64,000 bases of DNA from an uncultured Planctomycetia bacterium. Lineage in GTDB: Bacteria > Planctomycetota > Phycisphaerae > FEN-1346 > JAACEH01. The DNA lies in assembly GCA_903929765.1 (NCBI GenBank), contig CAIYVX010000045.1, positions 1-64,000 on the forward strand, in the 5' to 3' direction. The translations under genes and the position numbers were made by a program. Under the pieces are notes generated by a model, which worked only from the letters and a program-made list of their open reading frames with translations, made no database searches and was not told the origin of the DNA. Below are positions 205-64,000 of this stretch, in pieces (positions within the stretch are counted from its first letter, which is position 1; each line of letters opens with the position of its first letter).

Positions 205-1707
205 TTAGAATTGTTTGCGTCTCCGGCTGGAGGGGATGTCGAGGAGGCCGCGGTATTTGGCGACGGTGCGGCGGGCGAGGTCGATGCCCTCGGCCTTGAA
301 GCGTTCGACGAGTTCCTCGTCGGAGAGGGGGTTGGATTTGTCTTCGCCGGCGACCAGGTCCTTGAGACGGTTGCGGACCTTGTCCCAGGCGATGGTTTCG
401 CCGCCGGCGGTTTCGGTGCCGCCGGTAAAGAAGTTGCGCAGGGCGAAAATGCCGTGCGGCGTCTGGGCGTATTTTTCGTCCACGGCGCGGGAAATCGTCC
501 CGACGTGGAGCTTGACGTCGTCGGCCACTTGCTGCATCTTGAGCGGCTCCAGGTGGTCGGGGCCGAGGTCGAGGAACGGCCGTTGGAACTTGACGATGGA
601 CTGGACGACGCGCTGGAGCGTGGAGCGGCGCTGCTCGATGGCGTCGATCAGCCAGCGGGCGGAGCGGATGTTGCGGGCGAGGAATTCGCGGGTCTTGGGG
701 TCGAGGCCGCGTTCGTGGACCATCTTGCGGAACATCGCTCCGATGAAAAGGTTCGGCGTGCGTTCGTCGCGGATGGTGACGCGGTATTCGTCGTGGCTCT
801 CGTCGTAGGAAATTTCAACGTCGGGCACAATGTAGTGCGAGACCTGGGTGGTGATCGATCCGCCGGGCTTGGGATTCAGGCGGCGCAGACGCTCGACGGC
901 GGCCTTGACCTGGTCGATGGTGACGCCGAGGGCGCGGGCGACCTGGGGATAGCGGTTATTCTCGATGTCGGCCAGGTGGTCGCGGACGAGGCGGCGGGCC
1001 AGGTCGGTGTCGGAGTCGCCGGGGGCGGCGCCGGCCAACTGGATGAGCAGGCATTCGCGGAGGTCGCGGGCGCCGACGCCGGCGGGTTCGAGCCGCTGGA
1101 CCAGGGCCAGGGCGGCCTCGGCCTGGGCCAGGGTGGCGGGGCGGCGCACGTCCTGTAGCACGTCCTCCAGCGGCACGCGGAGGTAACCGTTGTCGTCGAG
1201 GTTGCGGATGATGGTTTCGGCGAGGTCGCGGACTGACGGGTCGGCGGTGAGGTAGGCGACCTGTTCGATGAGGGATTCCTGGAGGTTCTCGCCAACGGCG
1301 GCGGTGTTCTGCATGGCGTCGAGCTTGGCGTCGCGTTCGCCGTCGGCCCGGGGCGTGCGGGGAGAGAATTCTTCCTCGCGGAAAAATTCCTGCCATTCGC
1401 CGGACATCTTGTCGAGGCGGTCGAACTCCTCGGCCCCGGCGTTGGCGTCGACCTCCAGCGGCCGCTCCTCCTCGGGCTTGGCGTCGGGGGCGGCTGCGGC
1501 AGCCTCGGCAGTTTCGGGAGGCGGCGGTTCGAGGGAGGTTTCGCTCGGCTCCTCCATCTCGAGGACCGGATTGGCGACGAGTTCCTGCTGAATGCGTTCT
1601 TCCAGCGCGAGGAGCGGGAGCTGGAGAATCTCCATGGACTGGATCATGCGCGGAGCGAGCTTCATCCGCTGTTCGAGGCGAGCTTGCATGGAGGTGTCGA
1701 AACGCAT
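205..1707 (-). CDS. rpoN: RNA polymerase sigma-54 factor RpoN
   Basis: Alternative sigma factor that directs RNA polymerase to -24/-12 promoters and needs an AAA+ enhancer-binding activator. The 500-residue protein has the full family order: a Gln/Leu-rich region I (about residues 1-50, with LAPRMIQSMEILQLPLLALE), an acidic linker (about 50-125), the core-binding domain, a helix-turn-helix, and the diagnostic RpoN box ARRTVAKYR at about 478-486. The length is normal. It follows recR on the same strand but is separated from it by a repeat-filled gap of about 100 bp, so co-transcription is uncertain. Identification is secure. Confidence 0.97.
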   Translation of the reverse strand: MRFDTSMQARLEQRMKLAPRMIQSMEILQLPLLALEERIQQELVANPVLEMEEPSETSLEPPPPETAEAAAAAPDAKPEEERPLEVDANAGAEEFDRLDKMSGEWQEFFREEEFSPRTPRADGERDAKLDAMQNTAAVGENLQESLIEQVAYLTADPSVRDLAETIIRNLDDNGYLRVPLEDVLQDVRRPATLAQAEAALALVQRLEPAGVGARDLRECLLIQLAGAAPGDSDTDLARRLVRDHLADIENNRYPQVARALGVTIDQVKAAVERLRRLNPKPGGSITTQVSHYIVPDVEISYDESHDEYRVTIRDERTPNLFIGAMFRKMVHERGLDPKTREFLARNIRSARWLIDAIEQRRSTLQRVVQSIVKFQRPFLDLGPDHLEPLKMQQVADDVKLHVGTISRAVDEKYAQTPHGIFALRNFFTGGTETAGGETIAWDKVRNRLKDLVAGEDKSNPLSDEELVERFKAEGIDLARRTVAKYRGLLDIPSSRRRKQF

Positions 1708-1713
1708 AGAGGC

Positions 1714-1797
1714 AGACCTCAGGCTTAAGGCTTAAGACTTAAGGAACGGCAAAAAAAAAACAACGGCCGGACAGGGCAGAGCCCTGTCCCTACGACA
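1714..1797. repeat. intergenic repeat modules between recR and rpoN
   Basis: Two modules lie upstream of the rpoN start. The first is an imperfect tandem of AGGCTTAAG/ACTTAAGG heptamer-like units at about 1720-1743, ending in GAACGGCAA. The second is the hairpin ACAGGGCAGAGCCCTGTCCC at 1771-1790, identical to the copy at 168-187. Confidence 0.7.
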
Positions 1798-1806
1798 GCA
1801 ACGGCA

Positions 1807-2409
1807 TCATTTCAGTTCCTGGCGGCCCTGGAGGGCGTCGGTCAGGACGCCGCGATTGACGAATTCCAGTGTGCCGCCCATGGGCAGGCCGCGAGCCAGG
1901 CGGGTCAGGCGGACGCCCAGGGGGCGAAGCCGCTCGACCACTTCCAGGGCCGTGGCGTCGCTTTCGAGCGTCGGGTTGGTGGCCAGGATGACTTCCTTGA
2001 TGCCCTGCTCTTTGGTGCGGCGAGTGAGAGCTTCGAGGGTCAACTGCTCCGGCCCGATGCCGTCGAGCGGGGCGAGGTGGCCTTTGAGAACATGATAGAG
2101 GCCGCGAAACAGGCCGGTTTCCTCGATGCGGGCCACGTCGCGCGAAGTTTCGACCACGCAGAGCACGGTGCGGTCGCGGGCCGGGTCGGAGCACAAGGCG
2201 CAGGGGTCGGCGTCGCCACGATTGAAACAGATTGAGCATTCGGTCAGACGGCTGCGCATTTCGGTGATGGCGGCGGAGAGTTCGGCGGCCTCGGCCTCGG
2301 GAGCGTTCATCAGATAGAAGGCGAGCCGCTCGGCCGTGCGGGCGCCAATGCCCGGCAGGCCCTGGAGTGCTTTGATGAGACGAGACATGGTCGGCGTGGC
2401 GTCGGACAC
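1807..2409 (-). CDS. recR: recombination mediator protein RecR
   Basis: Part of the RecFOR/RecOR pathway that loads RecA at single-stranded gaps. The 200-residue protein has the family layout: helix-hairpin-helix near residues 14-30 (LPGIGARTAERLAF), a four-Cys zinc finger at Cys58, 61, 70 and 73, and a Toprim domain from about 82 to 175. The start is GTG at 2409, supported by GGAG five bases upstream; the internal ATG at 2388 has no Shine-Dalgarno. It lies downstream of dnaX as in many bacteria, but the ybaB/ebfC gene that usually separates them is missing and a repeat block takes its place. Confidence 0.96.
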   Translation of the reverse strand: MSDATPTMSRLIKALQGLPGIGARTAERLAFYLMNAPEAEAAELSAAITEMRSRLTECSICFNRGDADPCALCSDPARDRTVLCVVETSRDVARIEETGLFRGLYHVLKGHLAPLDGIGPEQLTLEALTRRTKEQGIKEVILATNPTLESDATALEVVERLRPLGVRLTRLARGLPMGGTLEFVNRGVLTDALQGRQELK

Positions 2410-2411
2410 AA

Positions 2412-2640
2412 TAACTCCAGACTTAAGGCTAAAGGCTTAAGACTTAAGGAACGGCAACAAAAGAAACAGACACCCTCACCCTACCCTCTCCCCTCAAGGG
2501 AGAGGGGTGAAAAAGTAACAGAAAAAAACAACGGCAACGCCAAGCGGAAAACGGCATTTTTTGCCGCGTGGCTGCAAGCAGCCACCCTACATAACTGTAA
2601 GACATGGCGGCAAACAACGCCGCCATGCCACCCTTTTCCT
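2412..2640. repeat. repeat block between dnaX and recR
   Basis: Four modules in a row: AGGCTTAAG-type tandem (about 2414-2449); the CTCTCCC/GGGAGAG palindrome, type I (2471-2511); the linker CAAGCGGAAAACGGC (2541-2555); and the hairpin GTGGCTGCAAGCAGCCAC (2568-2585). The last two recur together at 10250-10295. A further short inverted unit, CATGGCGG...CCGCCATG, lies near 2604-2628. No gene is seen. Confidence 0.7.
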
Positions 2641-4128
2641 TTACGACGGTTGCCGGCGGCGCATGTCCACGATGCGACCATCGAACAACTTGAGAATCTT
2701 TTGCACCTTCGGATCGCGCCGCAATTCGTCCTGCTCGGCACTGGTCATCGGCTTTTCAAGCGGCGCGGGAACAGAGGCATTCGTCAGCGTGGGAGCGGTC
2801 TTTGGCCTCAACCCCTCACCGGCCCCTAAAGGGGCCACCTCTCCCAAGGGAGAGGGGTAAACAGCAACATCTTCCGGCCCCGGATCGACAATTTCAGTTT
2901 CGCCGGCCGTCTCGACGGCGTGGGGCGGCGCGGCGGAGGAGACTAAGGCGTCAGGCTTTTTTTTTTCGTCGGCGGCAGCCGAGGGCGAACCGGCGGCCAC
3001 GGGGCCGAGACGTTTCAGGGCTTCGCCGATGGCGACGAAGTCGGGCAGCGAAGCGAGTTGGATCAAAGCCAGTTCGGCCAGGGGCCGGGCTCCGGGCAGG
3101 CCGCGCAGACGGTAGCGGGCCTCGCCCACGAGTTCCAGGGCCAGCGTCAATTGGTCGCCGGCAAAGGCGGCGGACTGTTTCTGAAAGCGGGCGCGTTCCT
3201 CGGCGGTGGCGTCGAGGCCGGGGGCTTCGAGGCCGGCCAGCTTCACCAGGAGCAGGGAACGGAAATGGTCGAGCAGATGATCGAGGAACTCGCCGACTTC
3301 GACGCCGTCGTTGAGGGCGGCATCGAACATGGCGAGTGCTTTGGCGGCATCGCGGGCCTGGAGGGCGTCGAGGACTAAAAAGTAGCGCTCAGCGCCGGCG
3401 AGGCCGAGGGCTTCCAGAACGGAAGCGAGGCGGACCTCGCCGCCGGTGACGGTGATGGCCTGGTCGAGGATGGTCAGGGCGTCGCGGACGGAACCGCGAC
3501 CTTCGCGGGCGATGACGTGGAGGGCGTCGGAGTCGGCCTTGATTTTTTCCATCTTGCAGACGTGGGCGAGGTGGTCGGCGATGATCAGGGTGGGGACGGA
3601 GCGGAAATCGAAGCGCTGGCAGCGGCTGTGGATGGTGGCGGGAACTTTCTGGGGGTCGGTGGTGGCGAAGATGAACTTGACGTGGGCTGGCGGTTCCTCC
3701 AGCGTTTTCAGGAGGGCGTTGAAGGCGGAGTTGGAGAGCATGTGGACTTCGTCAATGATGTAGATTTTGAAACGGCTGCGTGACGGGGCGTAGATGGCGT
3801 TGGCCCGGAGGCTGCGGACGTCGTCAACGCCGGTGTTGGAAGCGCCGTCGATTTCGATGACGTCGAGGTCGTCGCCGTCCTGGGTGCGGCGGCAGGAATC
3901 GCACTTGCCGCAGGGGTCGGGGGTGGGGCCTTTTTCGCAGTTGAGGGCTTTGGCCAGGAGTCGGGCAAGGGTGGTCTTGCCGACGCCGCGCGTTCCGGTG
4001 AAGAGGTAGGCGTGGGCGACGCGGTCGGCGGAGATGGCGTTGCGCAAGGTGCGGACAACGGCGTCCTGGCCGATGACTTCGTCGAAATTCTGCGGCCGAT
4101 AGCGGCGCGCGAGGACAGTGTACGCCAT
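2641..4128 (-). CDS. dnaX: DNA polymerase III subunit gamma/tau
   Basis: Clamp-loader ATPase of the replicative polymerase. The 495-residue protein has the Walker A motif GTRGVGKTT (about residues 45-53), a four-Cys zinc module (CEKGPTPDPCGKCDSC), the DEVH-type Walker B with IIDEVHMLS, and the SRC arginine-finger motif HSRCQRFDFR, so the ATPase core is intact. After about residue 370 the sequence turns low-complexity. Codons 388-391 contain a run of ten A (see the separate entry), and residues about 423-439 are encoded by a palindromic repeat inserted in frame. The C-terminal motif around KILKLFDGRIVDMR looks conserved, so the long (tau-like) form is probably made. First gene of the dnaX-recR-rpoN run. 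Confidence 0.96.
   Translation of the reverse strand: MAYTVLARRYRPQNFDEVIGQDAVVRTLRNAISADRVAHAYLFTGTRGVGKTTLARLLAKALNCEKGPTPDPCGKCDSCRRTQDGDDLDVIEIDGASNTGVDDVRSLRANAIYAPSRSRFKIYIIDEVHMLSNSAFNALLKTLEEPPAHVKFIFATTDPQKVPATIHSRCQRFDFRSVPTLIIADHLAHVCKMEKIKADSDALHVIAREGRGSVRDALTILDQAITVTGGEVRLASVLEALGLAGAERYFLVLDALQARDAAKALAMFDAALNDGVEVGEFLDHLLDHFRSLLLVKLAGLEAPGLDATAEERARFQKQSAAFAGDQLTLALELVGEARYRLRGLPGARPLAELALIQLASLPDFVAIGEALKRLGPVAAGSPSAAADEKKKPDALVSSAAPPHAVETAGETEIVDPGPEDVAVYPSPLGEVAPLGAGEGLRPKTAPTLTNASVPAPLEKPMTSAEQDELRRDPKVQKILKLFDGRIVDMRRRQPS
2811..2862. repeat. type II CTCTCCC palindrome inserted in dnaX
   Basis: Two adjacent hairpins, GGCCCCTAAAGGGGCC and CCTCTCCCAAGGGAGAGG, preceded by CCCCTCACC. 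The same bipartite layout is seen outside genes at 4303-4355 and 8864-8911. Here it lies inside the dnaX frame, where it encodes YPSPLGEVAPLGAGEGL. Confidence 0.75.
2957..2966 (-). other. A10 slippage site in dnaX
   Basis: On the coding strand the codons read GAC GAA AAA AAA AAG CCT GAC, an uninterrupted run of ten A. One extra A gives AAA GCC TGA, which stops two codons on (about 392 residues). One fewer A gives AGC CTG ACG CCT TAG, which also stops. Known dnaX genes (Thermus by transcriptional slippage, E. coli by ribosomal frameshifting) use A-rich tracts at this point to make the short gamma form. Slippage itself is inferred. Confidence 0.6.
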
Positions 4129-59784: not shown

Positions 59785-61092
59785 CTATTTCTGCGACACC
59801 TTCAGAGCCTGGTCGAGGTCGGCGATAATGTCCTCGACGTCCTCGATGCCGATCGAGAGGCGGATGAACTCCGGCGTCACGCCGGTCGAAGCCTGTTCCT
59901 CGACCGTGAGTTGCGAATGAGTGGTCGAGGCCGGATGAATGACCAGGGTTTTGGCGTCGCCGATGTTGGCCAGGTGGCTGGCCAGCTTGACACTGTTGAT
60001 GAATTTGACGCCGGCCGGCGCTCCGCCGCGAATGCCGAAGCCGAGGATGGCCCCGAAACCATTTTTCAGATACTTCTTCGCGTTGGCATGTTGCGGATGG
60101 CTCGGCAGGCCGGGATAGTTGACCCATTGCACCGCCGGATGCTTCTCCAGCCACAGGGCGACCTTCAAGGCGTTCTCCGAGTGGCGGGCCAGACGGAGAT
60201 GAAGCGTTTCAATGCCGAGCAGGAAGAGAAATGCCGCAAACGGACTCATGCACGCCCCCGTGTCGCGCAGCCAATGGGTGCGGATGTGGATGATGTAGGC
60301 GATGTTGCCGATGGGCTTGAGGGCTTCGGTGAAGACCACGCCGTGATAGGCCGGGTCCGGGGCAGTGAATTCCGGCCACTTCGCGGGATTGTCGGCCCAG
60401 GGGAACGTGGCGGCATCGACGATGGCGCCGCCGATGTGGACGCCGTGGCCGCCGAGGAACTTGGTCGTCGAATAGACCACCACGTCGAAGCCGTGTTCGA
60501 CGGGCCGCAGGAGCGGCGGCGGACTGACCGTGTTGTCGATAATCGCCGGGAGGCCGTGCTTATGGGCCGTGTCTGAGATCCGGCGGAAGTCCGGCACGTC
60601 GTTTTTCGGATTGCCGACCGACTCGATGTAGACCAGACGCGTGTTCTCATCCACCAGCTTGTCGATCTGCTCGGGATGCTGCGGATCGAAAAAGCGAACC
60701 TCGATCCCAAGCTTCTTGAAGGTCTGGGTGAAGAGCGTCCAGGTACCGCCATAGAGGCTGGTGGCGGAGATGAAGTTCTGGCCGCTGTGGGTGATGGTCA
60801 GAATGGCAGCGGTAATGGCGGCCTGACCGCTGGCGAACGCCAGGCCGGCAGCGCCGCCGTCGAGGGCGGCCAGACGCTTTTCGAGTACGTCGTTGGTCGG
60901 GTTCATCAGCCGCGAGTAGATGTTGCCGAACTCTTTCAGGGCGAAGAGGTTGGCGGCCTGTTCGGTGCTGGTGAAATTGTAGGCGGCCGTGGCGTAAATC
61001 GGCACGGCGCAGGCATGCGTGGTCGGATCATCCTGCTGTCCCGCGTGCAGGGCCAGCGTGCCGAATCCTGGTTTCTTTACTGCGTCCGTCAT
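59785..61092 (-). CDS. metY: O-acetylhomoserine sulfhydrylase (aminocarboxypropyltransferase)
   Basis: PLP enzyme that joins O-acetylhomoserine with sulfide (or a protein thiocarboxylate) to make homocysteine. The 435-residue length and insert pattern (SATSLYGGTWTLFTQTF, VVYSTTKFLGGHGVHIGGAIVD with the Schiff-base Lys, GVTPEFIRLSIGIE) match MetY rather than the shorter MetB. ATG has AAAGGA seven bases upstream. Downstream of the ThiF-lyase fusion gene by 105 bp on the same strand; with the MetB-like gene beyond, this is a sulfur-amino-acid locus. Confidence 0.95.
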   Translation of the reverse strand: MTDAVKKPGFGTLALHAGQQDDPTTHACAVPIYATAAYNFTSTEQAANLFALKEFGNIYSRLMNPTNDVLEKRLAALDGGAAGLAFASGQAAITAAILTITHSGQNFISATSLYGGTWTLFTQTFKKLGIEVRFFDPQHPEQIDKLVDENTRLVYIESVGNPKNDVPDFRRISDTAHKHGLPAIIDNTVSPPPLLRPVEHGFDVVVYSTTKFLGGHGVHIGGAIVDAATFPWADNPAKWPEFTAPDPAYHGVVFTEALKPIGNIAYIIHIRTHWLRDTGACMSPFAAFLFLLGIETLHLRLARHSENALKVALWLEKHPAVQWVNYPGLPSHPQHANAKKYLKNGFGAILGFGIRGGAPAGVKFINSVKLASHLANIGDAKTLVIHPASTTHSQLTVEEQASTGVTPEFIRLSIGIEDVEDIIADLDQALKVSQK

Positions 61093-61197: not shown

Positions 61198-63378
61198 TTA
61201 CAACTCTGCTGCGGCCTTGGCCGGACTATAGCGGGCCTCAAACTCGCCGCCCGCTCCCGCCGGACCGCTGCGGCGCACCAACCCCCGGATCTGTTCGCGG
61301 TTGGCCATCACATCCTTAAAACCTGTCACGACCCGCTTCAAATCTTCGTCCGAGTAGCGGTCAATCGGCACCGCCAGGCGGAGCAATTGGATTCCACGGC
61401 GCTGTTGTTCGGGCGACGCGAGGTTAGCCGCCGCGCGGACGCCGGAGGCCACGAACAATTCGTTCGCCAGAGCCTGCGTGGGAAACTGCTCGACTGGGAT
61501 GTGGGGCAACAAGGCCCGAACATCTACATACACACCCTGGCCGCCGGCTGGCGCGACCACCGGAACCGACAACTTGTGAAGAGCTTCCCAAAGCCGGGCG
61601 ACCTGCGCAACCCGCTCGGACGAGCAACGATTCCAGACCGGGAAGAGAGCCACCGCCCGGGCCAGCGCCGCCCGACTGCCGCCCGTCAGACCATCACCGA
61701 AGGCCAGCGTGAGGTCGCGGAAGCCGGTGAAAAGTTCGTCGGAACTGGTCGCCACAAAGCCGCCCACGGTACACTTGAAATCCTTGGCACAACTGGCCGC
61801 ACCGGCGTCGGAATACGAGCAGAGTTCCCGGACGATGCCGGCCAGGGACTGGTCGGCGTAGCCCGGCTCACGCTGCTGAATCAGGGCCGCGTTCTCAAAG
61901 GCCCGGGTGGGATCGAGCAGAAGGAGAATGCCCCTCGGCCGAGTCAACTCGCGGACCGCCCGGAGGTTGGCCGCAGAAACCGGATGGCCGCCCGACGCGT
62001 TGGCGCAAAGCTCCACATAGACCGCTTTGACCTGGGCCGCGGTTGGTCCGGCCAGAAGCTTCCGAAGGCCGTCCAGGTCGATATTCCCCTTGAACGGCTC
62101 GTCGCCCTGGAGATCGTAGCTTTCCGGCGCGCGAAGTTCGAGTACCGTGAACCCGTTGGACTCCAGGTGAAAACGCGTGGTTGGAAACAGACCGTTGGAA
62201 ACGACCAGGCCGCCGGAGCCTGCCAAAGCTCTGGCCAGCAGTGCTTCGGCAAACCGCCCGCGAAAGACGGGCACGAAATGCCGGTAGCCGAACAGACCGC
62301 GGAGAAACTCCTCGGGCGGCGCGACGGGCGGCTCCGTGGGCGACTCGACCGCGCAATCATCCGCCAAGCCGATCTCGTTCCAACTGTCGGTTAATAAGTC
62401 AAGCTCAACGGCGTGGTCCGGCAGCAGGTTGGTGTTATAGCCGCTCTGACTCAGCAGTGAGCGACGATCCCCGACCGACGCTGCTATCGTGACCGTCTCC
62501 GACCGCTTCACCGCCGGGGCCGACTTCGCGACACATTCGTCAACATGCACGATGCGGTAATTCATCCGCACCAGGTCCACCAGCAGGAAGTGCGGCAGGC
62601 AGATCGGGGGCCGCCATCCGGGGATCGTGTCGCCCAACAGAGCCAGAACCGCTTCCACGCTTAACAGTGTGCCCAGCAGCGCCGGCGCCACCGCCACCGA
62701 GGGCACGCGATGAAATTTCAGCGCCTCCTCGATCTTGTCCAGGTACTCCGGGACAAAGACCTCGCGGAAGCACGGCGGCAGCCTGGAGTCCCGCGTCGCC
62801 TCGTCCTCGATTACGCCCAGGAGTTCCATCGACGGACCGTCCGGCGCCGCCGTCGCCACCACGCCGCCGAAGCCGAGGTTGGCGCCCGTAGCGGCGTAAA
62901 TGGACCGGGTCCGGGCTGCGGCAAACATCCTGGCCCGTAAAGCTCCCGGCACAGCCACATCCAGGCAGTCGACCAGAAAATCGGCCTGGTCGAGGAAAGT
63001 ATCGACGTTCTGATCCGTCACCCCGTCCTCGACCAGCCGCACCGAAACGTCCGGATTAATGGTTTTGAGCAGTTCGCCATAGACGCGGGCTTTGTTCTGA
63101 CCCAGGGTCTGTCGGCTGGCGCCCCACTGGCGATTGATGTCCGGCTCGTCGAAGGGCTTGGGGTCGGACAGGATGAAGCCGCCGACGCCCATCCGGGCCA
63201 GCGTCAACGCGGCCGCGCCGCCATGACCGCCGCAACCGGCGATGGCCACCGTCTTTCCTCGCAGGGTATCGACCGCCGGCCGACCGAGAAGCATAATCGT
63301 GCGGTGCAGGTACTGGTGGAAATAGTCCTCCACTTGACCCACCGCCCGATTTTCGGGAACATGATTCTCGCTGGTCAT
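61198..63378 (-). CDS. fusion of ThiF/E1-like adenylyltransferase and tryptophanase-type lyase
   Basis: 726 residues in two parts. Residues about 20-275 are an E1/ThiF fold: AGCGGHGG nucleotide loop (47-54), Asn82-Arg83 of the arginine finger, Lys96 in GQNKA, and VDCLD with Asp137 and Asp140. No CxxC zinc pair is visible. Residues about 305-715 match the tryptophanase/tyrosine phenol-lyase family: SGYNTNLLPDHAVELDLLTD, NGLFPTTRFHLESNG, ELCANASGGHPVS, and AKDFKCTVGGF with Lys532 aligned to the PLP lysine. Both halves keep key residues. ATG has AAGGTG upstream. Lies between MetB-like and metY genes, so sulfur transfer is a fair inference; the reaction is unknown. Confidence 0.85.
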   Translation of the reverse strand: MTSENHVPENRAVGQVEDYFHQYLHRTIMLLGRPAVDTLRGKTVAIAGCGGHGGAAALTLARMGVGGFILSDPKPFDEPDINRQWGASRQTLGQNKARVYGELLKTINPDVSVRLVEDGVTDQNVDTFLDQADFLVDCLDVAVPGALRARMFAAARTRSIYAATGANLGFGGVVATAAPDGPSMELLGVIEDEATRDSRLPPCFREVFVPEYLDKIEEALKFHRVPSVAVAPALLGTLLSVEAVLALLGDTIPGWRPPICLPHFLLVDLVRMNYRIVHVDECVAKSAPAVKRSETVTIAASVGDRRSLLSQSGYNTNLLPDHAVELDLLTDSWNEIGLADDCAVESPTEPPVAPPEEFLRGLFGYRHFVPVFRGRFAEALLARALAGSGGLVVSNGLFPTTRFHLESNGFTVLELRAPESYDLQGDEPFKGNIDLDGLRKLLAGPTAAQVKAVYVELCANASGGHPVSAANLRAVRELTRPRGILLLLDPTRAFENAALIQQREPGYADQSLAGIVRELCSYSDAGAASCAKDFKCTVGGFVATSSDELFTGFRDLTLAFGDGLTGGSRAALARAVALFPVWNRCSSERVAQVARLWEALHKLSVPVVAPAGGQGVYVDVRALLPHIPVEQFPTQALANELFVASGVRAAANLASPEQQRRGIQLLRLAVPIDRYSDEDLKRVVTGFKDVMANREQIRGLVRRSGPAGAGGEFEARYSPAKAAAEL

Positions 63379-63409: not shown

Positions 63410-64000
63410 TCACCGCGACAATGGATCCAGAGCCTGACCCAGATCCTCGATCAGGTCCGCGACATCCTCGATGCCCACCGACAACCGCACGGTGCCTTCG
63501 GTGATGCCGATTCGTTGTCGCTCTTCGGGCGTCATGGTCGCGTGGCTCATCGTCGCAGGATGGCAGGCCAGCGACTCCACTCCGCCGAGGCTTTCGGCAA
63601 AGAGGAAGACCTTGAGCTTTTTGACGAACCGCGACACGTCCGCCCGTCCGCCGTCGAGCCGAAAGGTGACGATGGCCCCGAAACCGTCCATCTGACTCCT
63701 GGCCAATTCGTGCTGCGGATGGCTCGCGAGGCCCGGGTAAATCACCTCGCGGACCTTCGGCTGCTGCGTCAGAAACTTCGCCACGGCCAGGGCGTTCTGC
63801 TCGTGCTGCTTCATGCGTACGGCCAGCGTCTTCAGTCCGCGCAGGGTCAGCCAGCAATCCTGCGGCCCAGGCACCGCACCAACGGCATTCTGGTAGAACT
63901 TGATGGCCTCGTGCAGTTTTTCGTCGCTCGTCAGGACCGCGCCGCCAATCACGTCGGAGTGGCCGCTGACATACTTCGTCGTGCTGTGAACCACGATGCT
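63410..64000 (-). CDS. cystathionine gamma-synthase/lyase-like enzyme (5' end outside window)
   Basis: C-terminal part (about 196 residues) of a Cys/Met-metabolism PLP enzyme; the rest lies beyond the window edge. VHSTTKYVSGHSDVIGGAV holds the Schiff-base Lys, and the closing blocks (SLGGVESLACHPATMSHATM and GTVRLSVGIEDVADLIEDL) fit the MetB/MetC/CGL group. The lack of the MetY insert suits a gamma-synthase or gamma-lyase. It precedes the ThiF-lyase gene by 31 bp and is probably co-transcribed with it. Which of the two reactions it does cannot be told. Confidence 0.92.
   Translation of the reverse strand, partial: SIVVHSTTKYVSGHSDVIGGAVLTSDEKLHEAIKFYQNAVGAVPGPQDCWLTLRGLKTLAVRMKQHEQNALAVAKFLTQQPKVREVIYPGLASHPQHELARSQMDGFGAIVTFRLDGGRADVSRFVKKLKVFLFAESLGGVESLACHPATMSHATMTPEERQRIGITEGTVRLSVGIEDVADLIEDLGQALDPLSR

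Follow-up and report, generated by a model that had tools for sequence, protein, structure and literature searches.

The window, by which we refer to the whole 64,000-nucleotide stretch of DNA analysed here, encodes a fusion of a ThiF/E1-like adenylating domain with a PLP-dependent lyase domain of fold type I, the latter with features of the SH domains of leinamycin-family polyketide synthases (PKS; Table 1). The locus is read from the minus strand in the order canonical ThiF, DUF3034 protein, CysK, MetB-like protein, fusion and MetY, with gaps of 8-105 bp, which agrees with the position between a MetB-like gene and MetY given in the preliminary description of this DNA. Two sigma70-like promoters are located upstream of the first gene of the operon. 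A GC-rich hairpin with a T tract sits between these promoters and the first gene, just before thiF2, and is a possible attenuator, with terminator-like matches about as many as in shuffled sequences. An Rfam search upstream of the operon yielded neither a riboswitch nor any other match.

Table 1. Coordinates of the fusion gene, its domains and motifs, its operon and homologous fusions; positions lacking a locus prefix refer to the window.
Feature	Coordinates	Strand	Remarks
ThiF - SH-like C-S lyase fusion gene (putative function)	61198..63378	(-)	726 aa, single uninterrupted ORF
ThiF/E1-like adenylating domain, residues 26-279	62542..63303	(-)	R26, GCGGxGG, D72, R83, K96, D137, D140
PLP lyase domain, fold type I, SH-like features, residues 290-711	61246..62511	(-)	
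TDSW motif, residues 330-333	62380..62391	(-)	shortened loop common to PKS SH domains
Lys532, predicted PLP lysine (SCAKDF)	61783..61785	(-)	aligned with K257 of tyrosine phenol-lyase (TPL)
MetY-type O-acetylhomoserine sulfhydrylase	59785..61092	(-)	next gene downstream of fusion, gap 105 bp
MetB/cystathionine gamma-synthase-like	63410..64000	(-)	cut by window end; full gene L006:3411-4559; 31 bp from fusion
CysK	L006:4572-5546	(-)	upstream of MetB-like gene, same direction as fusion
DUF3034 protein	L006:5555-6655	(-)	inside cysteine/methionine operon
Canonical ThiF (thiF2)	L006:6706-7596	(-)	first gene of sulfur operon
GC-rich hairpin and T tract	L006:7603-7619	(-)	G000:C45 about 67602-67618
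Full-length fusion	L050:9971-12142		723 aa, mid-contig
Full-length fusion	L051:7344-9524		726 aa, mid-contig; Kiritimatiellia MAG

Residues 26-279 match Pfam PF00899 (ThiF; E=1.2e-30) and residues 356-618 match Pfam Beta_elim_lyase (E=6.4e-29), while an NCBIfam tryptophanase-family model was matched over residues 300-701 with E=5.7e-82, slightly below the cut-off of this model. TPL enzymes are the top PDB relatives of the lyase half (residues 290-701), which contains both the PLP-dependent fold and the active-site lysine (K532). The predicted full-length structure is moderately confident (mean pLDDT 70.9). These matches to both halves of one intact ORF confirm the fusion of a ThiF/E1-like and a tryptophanase-type PLP lyase domain proposed earlier, and the residues claimed to be kept (R83, K96, D137 and D140 in the ThiF part, K532 in the lyase part) are all present; the two active sites appear intact.

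Exact peptide patterns from the ThiF half, scanned against one genome per species for 84,980 species, identified four loci (L050, L051, L052 and L053), although such an exact-motif scan may overlook more distant members. L050 and L051 encode full fusions with 45-50% identity to the window fusion in each half, and the same architecture is split between adjacent genes at the two other loci, i.e. neighbouring genes of 281 and 434 aa at L053 (Planctomycetota, apparently genome G076) and a ThiF gene followed by the start of a lyase gene at a contig end at L052. A search with an alignment of the five ThiF domains (three fused, two split) located the fused or paired clade in two of 388 genomes of the phylum of L051 (G348 and G349, the sources of L050 and L051) and in two of 392 genomes of the window's phylum (the window's own genome and G076 with its split pair); three further matches in the latter phylum were far weaker (E about 1e-47 to 1e-50, vs 1e-127 for G076). 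The same-family and same-order relatives of the window that were searched contained no fusion match. Among the plasmid matches listed, only the lyase half was represented and none covered 80% of the fusion. Thus, the ThiF-lyase fusion is rare, and its sporadic distribution suggests horizontal spread. Being fused in three genomes and adjacent in two more, the two domains constitute a stable functional pair. Both are of known kinds, but neither a ThiF-PLP lyase fusion in the open-access literature nor the combined chemistry proposed below was found described.

The lyase half retains the PLP lysine K257 (TPL numbering; K532 in the fusion) together with R100, N185, D214 and R217 (phosphate-binding) and the substrate-carboxylate residue R404. 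In contrast, Y71, K256, T124 (Pro here), Y291 and the R381 loop are absent, as are the K+ site residues G52 and N262, whereas most other lyases of this phylum retain the TPL residues that the fusion lyase has lost. TPL-like lyases at L018 and L023, with Pro at position 71, Asp at position 291 and both lysines kept, represent another divergent branch of the family. In TPL, the aromatic ring is protonated by Y71 as it leaves, and enzyme without Y71 remains able to eliminate good leaving groups, for example thiols. On this basis, the lyase domain should not split tyrosine or tryptophan but could split C-S bonds. The tryptophanase-type designation proposed earlier holds for fold and family, with C-S rather than aromatic substrates as the better fit, but not for the tryptophanase-like substrate residues, and tryptophanase or TPL activity was rejected with the loss of Y71, K256, the ring-recognition residues and the K+ site.

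The lyase half shares several signatures with PKS SH domains, the sequences of which were taken from Streptomyces plasmid records. These include a short loop reading TDSW where TPL and tryptophanase read TDSG, an LFP motif with F-P at TPL positions 123/124, an S-x-x-KDF motif, the absence of Y291 and a deletion at the identical spot after G(V/I)R, which removes the R381 loop. The branch splitting SH domains and fusions from TPL and tryptophanase was supported at 99-100% whether or not the split member was included, albeit with the SH sequences on a long branch and overall sequence scores favouring TPL. The loop deletions common to both groups could be convergent, as the SH branch is long. Furthermore, a structure search (Foldseek) did not separate SH from TPL, and its rankings favour TPL. 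SH domains have been demonstrated to be (thio)cysteine C-S lyases (PMC8479088).

The ATP/Mg-site residues and the N-terminal Arg are conserved in all five ThiF domains, except for an Asp at the MoeB N70 position in every one of them. None of the five has the four Zn-binding cysteines or the catalytic Cys found in MoeB/ThiF. In the phylogenetic tree, a 100/100 clade unites the five fused or split ThiFs. It is nested in a larger ThiF group, several members of which are neighbours or fusion partners of FeeM N-acyl amino acid synthases or nitroreductases. By contrast, HcyF of L051 and the ThiF encoded by thiF2 in the window's operon group with MoeB/ThiF. The fusion ThiF is thus assigned to the oxazolone/N-acyl amino acid branch and not to the ThiS/MoaD-activating branch, a placement by tree proxy that relies on FeeM- or FDO-linked ThiFs. 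TyzB, OxzB and TrzS activate N-acyl amino acids by adenylation and cyclise them (PMC10404671, PMC12856293, PMC12479983). The absence of the Zn and catalytic cysteines and the separate branch led us to reject a canonical ThiF/MoeB identity. The preliminary description's comparison with ThiF-like enzymes making protein thiocarboxylates is not supported for this ThiF type, which groups with oxazolone-type ThiFs beside FeeM. A single ORF in the Planctomycetota genome G341 (L046:385-2370 (+)) encodes a FeeM N-acyl amino acid synthase fused to a ThiF domain, and the window's own genome contains a ThiF gene convergent with a FeeM gene (L056:4772-6542).

The sulfur-assimilation setting of the window fusion recurs, with CysK and MetY encoded at all three fusion loci. 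At L050, genes for Rrf2, CysK, LarE and the fusion are followed by CysD, CysN, MetY and an HcyS-like carrier within 10 kb; the CysK, LarE and fusion genes overlap by a few bases, with LarE directly upstream of the fusion. At L051, the fusion gene is divergent from genes for Rrf2, MetY, HcyS, HcyF, a JAMM-sulfite reductase-TusA fusion and CysK. An HcyS-like carrier is thus found near MetY at two of the three fusion loci. The two carriers are alike and both run past the GG, as expected of carriers that need trimming. FeeM N-acyltransferase and nitroreductase/flavin oxidase genes were not seen in the three fusion neighbourhoods. FeeM and a B12-radical SAM protein are encoded at both split loci, which have no sulfur-gene setting, with FAAL (L052) and an FAD-binding oxidase (L053) as additional neighbours. 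The HcyS/MetY operon of L051 contains, at 1237-4032 (-), a 931-aa protein combining JAMM peptidase, sulfite-reductase core and TusA. The genome of L050 also encodes a ThiF (TcdA-like branch)-MetY-ThiS-CysK operon beside an Rrf2-like regulator (L069:2721-6185 (+)).

In the window's genome (96% complete), neither a Prok-JAB/JAMM peptidase nor a PAPS-reductase/CysD-family protein was found, HcyS was likewise not found, and the single ThiS is of the thiamine type and located beside thiG. HcyS carrier and JAMM peptidase occur together only at L051. The lack of JAMM and HcyS weakens a full carrier route to homocysteine in this organism, and a complete Wolinella-type HcyS/HcyD route is unsupported there. 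The earlier proposal of a cysteine-fed sulfur donor for homocysteine synthesis finds support in the sulfur setting and the C-S lyase branch, but homocysteine synthesis by the Wolinella-type carrier route is unsupported in this organism.

We hypothesize, with a probability of about 0.4, that the fusion is a two-domain sulfur-insertion enzyme, in which the ThiF domain activates a carboxylate and the SH-type PLP domain provides sulfur from cysteine. The ThiF domain would use ATP to adenylate the carboxylate, and the PLP domain would break the Cbeta-S bond of cysteine and supply the sulfur, with pyruvate and ammonia as by-products. The HcyS neighbours suggest that the carboxylate in the fusion loci is most likely the C-terminus of a small HcyS/ThiS-type sulfur carrier, while the ThiF ancestry and the split loci suggest a small molecule. 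In the most economical form, cysteine would attack the acyl-adenylate to give S-acyl-cysteine, which the lyase would cleave to a thiocarboxylate for MetY/CysK-linked sulfur amino-acid synthesis. A single enzyme might then convert a carboxylate to a thiocarboxylate with ATP and free cysteine, bypassing cysteine desulfurase, persulfide relay and free sulfide, which we consider a tentative and rather doubtful extension. We infer the reaction steps, the carboxylate and the thiocarboxylate product from sequence, and each step has a precedent in GrcB, SH domains or LarE. The ThiF-like enzyme GrcB couples a cysteine thiol with a carboxylate to form a Glu-Cys thiolactone (PMC12250964), and LarE performs carboxylate adenylation, covalent Cys adduct formation and C-S cleavage to a thiocarboxylate on its own sacrificed cysteine (PMC11796402).

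This sulfur-insertion model is supported by the recurrence of the pair in five genomes, fused or adjacent, with ATP/Mg residues in all five, by the retained PLP residues, lost aromatic-substrate residues and SH signatures, and by the sulfur genes near the fusions (CysK and MetY at each of the three loci, HcyS at two and LarE in L050). The oxazolone-branch ThiF, the split relatives with FeeM, FAAL and radical SAM genes, the window's genome with a single ThiS and without JAMM, the canonical HcyF and own sulfite reductase already present in L051, and the overall closeness of sequence and fold to TPL (the SH branch being long) count against it. Alternatively, the fusion could be a small-molecule enzyme whose ThiF domain acts, like TyzB, OxzB and TrzS, on a carboxylate resembling an N-acyl amino acid and needs no carrier protein; the lyase would catalyse an elimination or replacement with a partner derived from cysteine or serine, and the sulfur genes would reflect only the amino acid used. 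Such an enzyme, which we regard as unlikely but credible, is consistent with the 100/100 clade of fusion and split ThiFs within FeeM- or nitroreductase-linked ThiFs, with FeeM and the B12-radical SAM gene at both split loci (and FAAL at L052) and with the ATP-using cyclisation of N-acyl amino acids by TyzB and TrzS (PMC10404671, PMC12856293). However, the surroundings of the three fusions feature CysK, MetY and, twice, HcyS instead of FeeM or nitroreductase.

A simple desulfhydrase for cysteine (or homocysteine) that releases free sulfide for use by MetY, with ThiF as an ATP sensor or passenger, appears improbable. MetY is the next gene, a small substrate would fit the lyase residues, and the genome gave no PAPS-reductase/CysD-family match, so that the organism may depend on sulfide or organic sulfur; yet all adenylation residues, the N-terminal Arg among them, are conserved across five members, which would be needless for a passenger, and CysK of the same operon would consume the sulfide. 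We consider it still less probable that the enzyme functions in the reverse direction, with ThiF loading a carrier with sulfide and PLP-dependent beta-replacement on serine or O-acetylserine yielding carrier-bound cysteine. Mycobacterial CysO/CysM provide a model for a carrier-bound cysteine route, TPL-family enzymes are capable of beta-replacement, and a carrier and MetY are among the neighbours, but a standard CysK accompanies all three fusions and the JAMM peptidase required by such a route is absent from the window's genome. The chance that a chimeric assembly or frameshift joined two genes is negligible: although the nearest same-family and same-order relatives lack the fusion, its mid-contig presence at 45-50% identity in two other assemblies refutes an artefact and a chance join, and excludes the two objections raised beforehand, an assembly join or frameshift and the lack of a homologous fusion.

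Compared with TPL and tryptophanase, the fusion lyase shares the fold, roughly 30-39% identity, the PLP lysine and the phosphate/carboxylate-binding residues, but has none of the catalytic Y71, paired K256, ring-recognition T124/R381 and K+ site of these enzymes. SH domains (PDB 9cen) share the PLP fold, TDSW loop, F-P at 123/124, a single-Lys KDF motif and the loss of Y291, R381 loop and K+ site; the TPL Y71 position is Phe in SH domains and non-aromatic in the fusion lyase. SH domains are PKS-embedded beside a DUF domain, whereas the fusion lyase has an E1-like partner in sulfur amino-acid loci and would give the SH lyase of antibiotic assembly lines a place in primary sulfur metabolism. The oxazolone cyclases OxzB, TrzS and TyzB resemble the fusion in ThiF branch (by tree proxy) and in joining ThiF to a second enzyme, but this is often a flavin oxidase of the nitroreductase family, in contrast to the putative PLP C-S lyase here, which ties oxazolone-type ThiFs to sulfur chemistry. 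Their setting includes an N-acyltransferase, which was not seen beside the three fusions, with FeeM present at the split loci. The carrier-activating enzymes ThiF, MoeB and HcyF agree with the fusion ThiF in ATP-site residues but possess the Zn Cys quartet and catalytic Cys and belong to a separate branch. MetY and HcyS are likewise neighbours in L050, L051 and the Wolinella protein-thiocarboxylate methionine pathway (HcyS/HcyF/HcyD/MetY), which differs from the window's genome with its lack of JAMM and HcyS and, to our knowledge, includes no ThiF-lyase fusion. Known thiocarboxylate makers obtain sulfur from persulfide relays, sulfide or, in the case of LarE, a sacrificed cysteine of the enzyme itself; a single chain that combines a carboxylate activator with a C-S lyase for cysteine suggests a self-contained, cysteine-fed alternative. 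LarE, a PP-loop protein of unrelated fold whose gene adjoins the fusion in L050, would share the proposed chemistry of carboxylate adenylation, Cys attack and C-S cleavage to a thiocarboxylate. If true, single-enzyme thiocarboxylate synthesis by the fusion would be the catalytic equivalent of LarE and open a new route into protein-thiocarboxylate sulfur metabolism.
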